A stretch of 38,527 nucleotides of DNA from Verrucomicrobiota bacterium. Its GTDB lineage: Bacteria; Verrucomicrobiota; Verrucomicrobiia; Limisphaerales; SIBE01. The position numbers and the translations under genes were made by a program. Numbering within the stretch: the stretch's first letter is position 1; every line of letters starts with the position of its first letter. Below, in pieces: positions 35,361-38,496 of this stretch. The stretch covers positions 1 through 38,527 of the forward strand of contig VHCZ01000029.1 in the NCBI GenBank assembly GCA_016871535.1, read 5' to 3'. A model generated the notes under the pieces. That model ran no database searches, had not been told where the DNA came from, and saw only the letters and a program-made list of their open reading frames with translations.

Positions 35361-35465
35361 CATGAACCTCACGGTAGGGCGAGCCTGTCCCCAGCGAGCC
35401 GGTCTGGACGTGCTCCACTCACATCGAGCGGCTCGCCGGGACGGACTCGCCTTACCGGGTTCATT
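35361..35465. repeat. Palindromic repeat family R1, copy C (inverted)
   Basis: CCATGAACCTCACGGTAGGG at the left and CTCGCCTTACCGGGTTCATT at the right frame this copy, in the opposite orientation to the other three. It lies upstream of rfbA. The remaining part of 35306-35596 contains related CATGGCGCTTTCCATG-like short pieces but no gene. Confidence 0.88.
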
Positions 35466-35854: not shown

Positions 35855-36121
35855 ATGGCAAGCCTGAATAAGCCTGGTTTTCTCGTGTCCGCTTTGCCTC
35901 TCGCTTCCTGTCTCCTGGTGTGTCTGAGTTGCGCGGTCCACGCTGGCGGAACACTGAGAGAATTCTTCGATCGAAACTCGCACATTGCACCCCTGAATCC
36001 GGTAGGGACGCGTTCCACCGCGTTCCACCGCGTCCCTGATATTGTTTTTCGATCGTGGAGTAAAGTCAGGGACGGAGTGGTCCGCGTTTGGCGAAGCGGA
36101 CGTCTTTTCTGGGGAAACTGA
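35855..36121 (+). pseudogene. Orphan signal-peptide 5' fragment interrupted by R5
   Basis: From ATG 35855 the frame gives a good signal peptide (MASLNKPGFLVSALPLASCL then LVCLSCAVHAGG) and a short mature start (TLREFFDRNSHIAPLNP). At 36001 an R5 palindrome begins and the frame becomes Arg/Val-rich repeat translation until the stop at 36121. This looks like the beginning of an exported protein whose remainder was lost or shifted, possibly the original start of the chimeric gene at 36088. Confidence 0.4.
36001..36085. repeat. Palindromic repeat family R5, copy 2 with 10-base duplication
   Basis: Matches 3566-3650, with GGTAGGGACGCG at the left and TCAGGGACGGAGTGG at the right. A 10-base unit, CGTTCCACCG, is duplicated in the left arm. 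It separates an orphan signal peptide from the kinase fusion frame and gives that frame its TTG start. Confidence 0.85.
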
Positions 36122-37107
36122 TCGCGGGGCTTGGGAAAGCCCATCCGTCCGTACCCGGTTCGTGGGGAGGAGGCCTCACGCTCTCACCCGGTTCGAGTCC
36201 TGGAACGCTCCCCGGCCGCAGCCAGACCTGGGAAGGCGGCGGCAATTACGTCTGGGAAATCAACCATGCCGCCGGCACCGCAGGCGCTGATCCCGGCTGG
36301 GACTGGATCAACATCTCCGGCACACTCAGCATCCACTCGACTCCCTCCAACAAATTCAACATCAAGCTGACCACGCTCGCTCCGGACAACTCGGAGGGCG
36401 AAATGCATAATTTCAGCAAGCGCAGGAGTTACACCTGGACAATCGCCACGGCCAGCAGCGGAATATTCGGGTTCTCCGCTGATGCCTTCAACCTGGATGT
36501 GTCGGCATTCCGAAATTCGATGGACGGCGGCGCTTTCGGGATCGAGATCGCGGGCCACGATCTCAACGTGACGTTTTCGCCACGGCCTTCGCCGCAGGCG
36601 CGTTGGTGGGGCGAGTTGATGGTGAACCGCTGGATTCAGGCGGGCCTCGGTTTGGGCGGCCTGACCGTCGTCTTCAGCCTTTTCCTCTGGCGTATGCGCA
36701 CACTTCGCCGCATTCACGCGCTCGAACGGGAAAATGCCTTGAACCAGCAGCGCCACCAGATCGCCCGAGACCTCCATGACGAAATCGGCACCCGGCTCAC
36801 TCAGATTGCCCGCCTCTGCGAAACGGACCAACGAAGCGAGGCCTTGCACAACATCTTGAAACATGCCGAAGCCAGCCTCGTGGAAATGCGTGTGCGTGTG
36901 TCAGGAAGCGCCGTCGAACTTGGCATTCAGGACGACGGAAAAGGATTCGCGTCCGCGACCCTCAAGTCCAACGGCAACGGGTTGGCCAATATGCGCCAGC
37001 GTGTGGCGGAATTGGGCGGAACCTTCGCGCTGGAATCCGAACCTGGCCACGGCACGCATCTGCGCGTGAGCGTGCCTTTGCCGCCGGCTCATGCACGCGT
37101 CCCATGA
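36088..37107 (+). CDS. Chimeric histidine kinase: passenger-type domain, membrane helix, internally deleted kinase core
   Basis: A 339-residue frame (TTG start). Residues 32-165 resemble the final part of autotransporter-associated beta-strand proteins: LSPGSSPGTL, SQTWEGGGNYVWEIN, GWDWINISGTLSI, then DGGAFGIEIAGHDLNVTFSP. A membrane helix follows at about 182-200 (WIQAGLGLGGLTVVFSLFLW). The HisKA_3-type dimerisation helix is QIARDLHDEIGTRLTQIARL with phospho-acceptor His230. Directly after CETDQRS (244-250) comes the N-box ALHNILKHAEAS (Asn255), so about 80-100 residues of the second DHp helix and first ATPase strands appear deleted. The G1 box DDGKGF and G2 box GNGLANM are present. It probably pairs with the regulator at 37281; whether it is active is doubtful. 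Confidence 0.7.
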   Translation: MAKRTSFLGKLIAGLGKAHPSVPGSWGGGLTLSPGSSPGTLPGRSQTWEGGGNYVWEINHAAGTAGADPGWDWINISGTLSIHSTPSNKFNIKLTTLAPDNSEGEMHNFSKRRSYTWTIATASSGIFGFSADAFNLDVSAFRNSMDGGAFGIEIAGHDLNVTFSPRPSPQARWWGELMVNRWIQAGLGLGGLTVVFSLFLWRMRTLRRIHALERENALNQQRHQIARDLHDEIGTRLTQIARLCETDQRSEALHNILKHAEASLVEMRVRVSGSAVELGIQDDGKGFASATLKSNGNGLANMRQRVAELGGTFALESEPGHGTHLRVSVPLPPAHARVP

Positions 37108-37109
37108 AC

Positions 37110-37203
37110 CCCATCGCCGGTAGGGCGAGTCCGTCCCGGCGAGCCGCTCGACGTGCGTGGAACACATCCGACTCGGCTCGCTGGGGACAGGCTCGCCCTA
37201 CCG
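37110..37203. repeat. Palindromic repeat family R1, copy D
   Basis: Begins at CCATGAACCCCATCGCCGG and carries GGTAGGGCGAGTCCGTCCC and GGGACAGGCTCGCCCTACC arms. It starts at or next to the stop codon of the kinase gene and separates it from the response-regulator gene. Confidence 0.88.
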
Positions 37204-37280: not shown

Positions 37281-37976
37281 TTGCCTTCTCAATTGGGCCA
37301 CCATGCGTGCGCCTTGAGCAGCATCAATCCAGAGCCACATGCCATCGGCCTGGCCTTTGTGGAGGACCACGCCGAGGAACGCGCCCGTCTGATCAAGCTC
37401 ATCAAAAACTCTCCCGGCCTTGAACTCGTGGCGGCCTGCGCAAGCGCTGAGGAAGCCCTGGCGATAATCCCTCCCCTGCGCCCGGAGGTCATCATCTTGG
37501 ATATTCAACTGCCCGGTCTTTCGGGCATTGATTGTGCCGCCCGGCTCGCGGCCACCTTGCCTTCGGCGCAAATCATGATGCTGACGGTGATCGAGGATCA
37601 CGAACGGCTTTTCCAGGCCCTGGCCGCCGGCGCATCCGGCTACTTGCTCAAGAAAACGCCGGGAACCAAAATCCTCGAAGCCATTCGGGAGTTGCATCAG
37701 GGCGGCGCGCCGATGTCCGGGCAAATCGCCCGGCAAGTCGTGGCGTTCTTTCAACCGCGCAAGACGGAGTATTCTGAAGCCGTCCGGCTTTCGCCCACCG
37801 AGGACACCATCCTCCGCTGCCTTGCCCAGGGACTTCTCTACAAAGAAATCGGCCAGCGGCTTGGCGTCCAGATGAGCACGGTGCGCACGCACATCTGGCA
37901 CATCTACCGCAAACTCCACGCGCGCAACCGGACCGAAGCTGTGCGGAAGGCGTTTCCCAATGGCCTGCCGCCGTAG
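37281..37976 (+). CDS. NarL/LuxR-type response regulator
   Basis: A 231-residue regulator. The receiver domain (about 20-137) has acidic residues Glu28-Asp29, phospho-acceptor Asp74 (IILDIQLPG), Thr102 and Lys124 (YLLKKTPG). The C-terminal LuxR-type helix-turn-helix spans about 169-226 (LSPTEDTILRCLAQGLLYKE then IGQRLGVQMSTVRTHIWHIY). The start is not certain: only TTG codons (37281, 37293, 37314) precede the domain, and the one at 37314 would give the more usual short N-terminus. It is the natural partner of the upstream kinase; this orphan-like pairing is inferred from order and family. An R3 repeat follows 5 bases after the stop. Confidence 0.9.
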   Translation: MPSQLGHHACALSSINPEPHAIGLAFVEDHAEERARLIKLIKNSPGLELVAACASAEEALAIIPPLRPEVIILDIQLPGLSGIDCAARLAATLPSAQIMMLTVIEDHERLFQALAAGASGYLLKKTPGTKILEAIRELHQGGAPMSGQIARQVVAFFQPRKTEYSEAVRLSPTEDTILRCLAQGLLYKEIGQRLGVQMSTVRTHIWHIYRKLHARNRTEAVRKAFPNGLPP

Positions 37977-38187: not shown

Positions 38188-38496
38188 ATGGAAACAACAG
38201 TGAGCGGCCATGAAACCGCAATTTGGAGCCGCACAATCCAGCCTGAGAAAGGCGGCGTCACAATCAGCGGGGTGATCAGTGGCAGTGGTAACCTGGCTAT
38301 CTCTGGGTCTGACGGTCCCACGCTTTCAGGCAACAATACTTATTCAGGCTCTACTTCCGTTGGTAATGACCAGAACCTGACCGTTGGCCACGCCAATGCC
38401 TTAGAGCGTGTCCGAAAATTGCGCGGGGTCCTGCGGCGAGGGATTTTGGCTGTGGCCAAGGCGGCGAGGTCCGAGCATCCCCAACGCGGGCTGTAA
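38188..38496 (+). pseudogene. Autotransporter-associated beta-strand repeat fragment
   Basis: Residues about 20-70 give the classic repeat of autotransporter-associated surface proteins: GVTISGVISGSGNLAISGSD then GPTLSGNNTYSGSTSVGNDQ and NLTVGHANAL. There is no signal peptide (the N-terminus reads METTVSGHETAIW). After Ala-Leu the frame enters an R3-like edge (AGAGCGTGTCCGAAAAT at 38404) and becomes Arg-rich until the stop at 38496. It is therefore one repeat unit of a once larger surface protein, cut at its 3' end by an insertion. The kinase fusion upstream carries what looks like the tail of the same protein class. Confidence 0.6.

Follow-up and report, generated by a model that had tools for sequence, protein, structure and literature searches.

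In DesK, the structural model of the HisKA_3 histidine kinases, the DHp is the dimerisation domain and the dimer uses both of its helices (PMC5231405). Docking of the response regulator there is mostly to DHp helix 1, with minor contacts to helix 2 of the partner (PMC5231405). Two intact surface proteins are also relevant here, G001:C112 and G002:C570, from genomes of the same genus. Both have a signal-peptide-like N-terminus, beta-strand repeats and a weak PEP-CTERM motif, and the full G001:C112 frame scores 108.6 bits for PATR.

We analysed a window of 38,527 nucleotides that is the entire contig C29 of a draft genome, G000 (6.67 Mb, 460 contigs, 96.8 % complete); several of its relatives with a known name are Verrucomicrobia, which probably places the organism in that group. 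At 36088-37107 on the + strand the window contains a chimeric frame of 339 aa, with reading open from 36064 and no stop inside. A preliminary description of this DNA had proposed that a transmembrane helix and a HisKA_3-type kinase are joined here to the tail of a beta-strand protein, and the matches of the two parts bear this out. The features of the locus are as follows.

36088-37107, + strand: the whole chimeric frame, 339 aa
36019-36170, + strand: copy of a dispersed repeat of ~152 bp, source of the TTG start and of ~27 initial codons; boundaries from blastn against five copies
36169-36594, + strand: tail of a PATR/PEP-CTERM-like beta-strand surface protein, residues 28-169 (58 % to G001:C112, 57 % to G002:C570)
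36595-36837, + strand: join, transmembrane helix, coiled coil and H box, residues 170-250 (45-47 % to G054:C6 from residue 182)
36775-36777, + strand: codon of His230 (H box)
36837-36838: deletion junction, 87 codons gone between residues 250 and 251 (alignment of 20 kinases; H-N spacing in 44 others)
36838-37083, + strand: CA domain (HATPase_c), residues 251-332; strand 1 and the N-terminal half of the N-box helix are lost, the N, G1 and G2 boxes kept (HATPase_c, AF2)
37281-37976, + strand: NarL/LuxR-type response regulator, intact, conserved from 37311 (Response_reg and GerE)
35372-35458, no strand: left arm of an inverted pair of a dispersed repeat, 90 % complementary to 37117-37203
37117-37203, no strand: right arm of the same pair, 90 % complementary to 35372-35458

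Frame start and surface-protein part

The TTG at 36088 is the only upstream start codon of the chimeric frame and sits in the ~152-bp repeat, for which a DNA search of the genome against itself found 40 more places in G000, several of them near full-length at 81-87 %. The homology to the surface proteins starts exactly at the edge of this repeat (36166-36170), and the frame, beginning inside it, has no signal peptide left. Judged by codon usage, the passenger and kinase parts look coding in their native frame, but residues 1-27 do not.

Other dispersed sequences occur nearby. An inverted 87-nt repeat (the pair of arms listed above) flanks the chimeric gene and has further copies on C253, C291 and C109. 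At the contig end (38400-38527) begins an element of ~281 bp with terminal inverted repeats of ~34 bp (CTTAGAGCGTGTCCGAAAATT...), too short for a transposase. This element has 40 nearly full-length matches in G000 at 99-100 % and looks like a recently active MITE; the contig is broken by it. It also cuts a second beta-strand repeat protein fragment (38188-38403), which is ~50 % identical to the repeats of G002:C570 and has a PATR/TIGR02601 score below threshold.

The passenger part matches G001:C112 with 58 % identity over 142 aa, and no Pfam family was found in residues 28-170 of the chimera. Residues 28-169 are the sole match to the passenger surface protein anywhere in G000. The signal peptide and PATR repeats of that protein are absent from the genome, where no TIGR02601 match lies above threshold. 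A passenger gene adjoining a kinase-regulator pair, an arrangement that would allow fusion by one deletion, was not seen in the retrieved stretches of the relatives. The beta-helical ectodomain suggested in the preliminary description is a weak reading, because the domain is without an export signal and the PATR repeats are gone.

The kinase part and its missing segment

HATPase_c is recognized in the chimera with 45.8 bits (Pfam, profile positions 11-110 of 111), while HisKA_3 reaches a sub-threshold 22.7 bits (cut-off 24) when the frame is searched and 24.4 bits in the genome search. The boxes named in the preliminary description hold up: His230 of the H box and Asn255 of the N box both fall in invariant columns of an alignment with 8 intact kinases, and G1 and G2 are visible and intact. 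CETDQRS (residues 244-250) does run directly into EALHNILKHAEAS (251-263), and the missing stretch, previously estimated at 80-100 residues, measures 87 against G054:C6. The distance from H to N is 25 in the chimera and 112 in G054:C6, so that 87 residues (261 bp) are gone. Across 44 other distinct kinases, from a scan of the retrieved loci, this spacing is 103-114 and none is near 25; the value in the chimera lies far beyond chance variation.

What is lost is DHp helix 2, including the conserved (E)IVWAxNPxxDTLE motif, along with CA strand 1 and the initial half of the N-box helix; this segment is present and can be aligned in 20 of 20 comparison kinases. Measured against what defines a HisKA_3 kinase, the chimera has an H box with its phosphoacceptor His and, in its HATPase_c domain, the N, G1 and G2 boxes; it has neither a two-helix DHp nor an H-N spacing of ~100-115 residues. 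Candidates for compact kinases elsewhere were rejected. Two ungapped matches spanning the deletion (G002:C750 and G023:C24) begin at residues that do not form an H box, and those at G131:C32, G136:C191, G264:C456 and G277:C77 come from normal kinases with the 112-residue spacing.

An AF2 model of the chimera, built from a small alignment, has one helix (169-247) that covers both the membrane segment and the H box, an N-box helix of only residues 252-259 and four CA strands, with no DHp helix 2 and no CA strand 1. The model scores pLDDT 60 and pTM 0.32, and its passenger part, mostly at pLDDT 31-46, is unreliable. In an intact control kinase (L043), modelled at pLDDT 84, DHp helix 2 and CA strand 1 are present and the N-box helix has 20 residues. 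Foldseek matched the catalytic domains of DesK and VraS over ~80 columns only, and structural relatives beyond the CA were not obtained, the comparison recovering only CA domains (DesK, VraS, DosS, CheA and similar).

The closest kinase to the chimera by tree is L127 (G096:C131, 1996-3585), which carries Ser for the N-box Asn (EALHSVLKHAEA) and has a spacing of 97. Its frame begins mid-propeller, and for that reason this kinase may also be decaying or frame-shifted.

Origin and fate of the locus

The best full-length match of the kinase part is G054:C6, to which homology begins at about residue 182 of the chimera. It is a frame of 1063 aa with 11 Reg_prop repeats, Y_Y_Y, HisKA_3 and HATPase_c. 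The downstream regulator, described earlier as intact, is indeed so (Response_reg 72 bits, GerE 55.5 bits), and its best relative among 97 genomes (G054:C6:8644-9273, 59 %) is the gene right after the G054:C6 kinase, where the same pair is kept intact. Kinase and regulator trees both group the window with G054 and G096, the placement in the regulator tree being weakly supported. Since the closest relative of the regulator follows the G054:C6 kinase and the two trees agree, sequence comparison indicates that the window locus derives from an ordinary kinase-regulator pair.

A parent-like copy of the kinase is not present in G000, which holds other dead kinase fragments (C236, C303, C352 and C79). 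The one on C236 (L122, 2846-3844, - strand) is a defunct propeller/HisKA_3 kinase that shows several internal deletions and changes of frame; within 1 kb, and in three different frames, lie pieces that match G054 residues 3-122, 515-563, 837-877 and 883-976, and after NIVLAINK it passes into unrelated sequence. C303 and C352 carry isolated degraded CA pieces, C79 a scrap of Y_Y_Y, and the frame of a kinase on C291 stops without a CA domain. Neither C236 nor C291 is the missing half of the chimeric gene, each having its own TM/H-box region. The preliminary description had also suggested looking for orthologues with the same junctions. None emerged: neither junction was found among the matches listed in 58 relatives and 320 genomes of the order (query residues 148-286), a match having to span the passenger end and the kinase in the manner of the same join. 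A literature search for fusions of this type gave nothing relevant.

These observations establish the anatomy of the chimera, its parents, the parts it misses and their absence elsewhere in G000. They suggest, with a probability of about 0.72, that the frame, a chimera of two genes, decayed recently and is now a pseudogene next to an intact but orphaned regulator. Between the compact sensor and the decaying gene of two parents offered by the preliminary description, we favour the second because of three truncations or joins, the lost signal peptide, the loss of a segment that every comparison kinase has, the junctions unmatched in the 320 order genomes and the other dead kinases of G000. Conserved functional segments have been lost relative to intact orthologues, as in a pseudogene.

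We hypothesize that the ancestor was a propeller/Y_Y_Y HisKA_3 kinase gene ahead of its NarL-type regulator. Deletions would have taken the signal peptide, propeller and Y_Y_Y and left the remainder fused, in frame, with the end of a surface-protein gene that had itself decayed. Another in-frame deletion, of 261 bp, would have cost the kinase DHp helix 2, (E)IVWAxNPxxDTLE, CA strand 1 and one half of its N-box helix. The dispersed repeat at the 5' border furnishes the only upstream start codon. The product, if made, is predicted not to be exported as a sensor, form a DHp dimer bundle or autophosphorylate normally, which probably leaves the regulator orphaned or dependent on another kinase. The loss of function, the order of these events and the fate of the regulator are what we infer.

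One alternative explanation, which we consider unlikely, is that the contig wrongly combines parts of two genes or omits 261 bp, the real genome having an intact kinase. The draft is in 460 contigs, the locus has dispersed repeats on its borders and the near-identical 281-bp element lies at the contig end, but the sequence at both junctions lies outside detected repeats and a loss of 87 residues at a non-repeated site is untypical of assembler errors. Moreover, the missing half of the passenger gene is nowhere in the 96.8 %-complete assembly, and other fragments with the missing kinase segment exist only in different genes with their own TM/H-box (C236, C291). The frame itself is real, but we find no support for a novel type of sensor.

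We compared the identities of kinase and regulator in 13 other pairs and found them correlated (r = 0.79), the window having a mean residual of -0.001 (sd 0.036). The retained kinase residues have thus evolved no faster than expected from the regulator; therefore the lesions are recent, or some constraint or residual function persists. This lack of acceleration, together with both joins being in frame (chance ~1/9), intact catalytic boxes and an intact adjoining regulator, could speak for a working compact sensor in which the beta-strand domain serves as a novel ectodomain, DHp and CA being fused into a minimal kinase. The in-frame state of the joins does not decide between decay and function, and the intact boxes, kept frame, lack of an internal stop, absent acceleration and normal kinase codon usage would fit a young pseudogene or retained function equally. 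The compact sensor is nevertheless very unlikely: the frame lacks a signal peptide as well as DHp helix 2 and CA strand 1, no orthologue has the same joins, the model is poor, and DesK has a two-helix DHp dimer with both helices touched by the regulator (PMC5231405). That the H-box helix passes straight into a shortened N-box helix in a functional minimal kinase, with the beta-strand tail replacing the sensor, is extremely improbable. Finally, a residual cytoplasmic product from the ATG at 36619 (162 aa: TM, H box and partial CA), acting as a decoy or phosphatase-like modulator of the regulator, would have a purine-rich stretch (GGTGGGGCGAG) ahead of its ATG and the helix that is the main regulator contact in the DesK complex (PMC5231405), but it has no orthologue and helix 1 would be unlikely to offer the docking surface in the absence of helix 2, making it very improbable indeed.

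If the chimera is decayed, as we favour, it provides a tidy case of sensor loss by in-frame deletions in repeat-rich Verrucomicrobia-like genomes, with the regulator kept. It would also be a caution that open frames with every catalytic motif can be non-functional. Were the chimera active, it would contradict the rule that a histidine kinase requires a DHp helical hairpin.

Comparison with known systems

Residues 28-169 of the chimera correspond to the C-terminal domain of the PATR/TIGR02601 surface proteins (57-58 %). Unlike these proteins the chimera has no signal peptide and no repeats, and a kinase helix replaces the anchor. With the Reg_prop/Y_Y_Y/HisKA_3/HATPase_c kinases typified by G054:C6 it shares the TM helix, H box, CA and neighbouring regulator, whereas the signal peptide, propeller repeats, Y_Y_Y and 87 residues of the kinase core are missing. 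The C236 pseudogene of the same genome belongs to the same kinase class and also has several internal deletions, but differs in being frame-shifted as well and without a CA domain, and is clearly dead. Compared to the solved HisKA_3 kinases DesK, VraS and DevS, the chimera has a similar CA domain from the N box on, while it is without their DHp hairpin and the first part of their CA.
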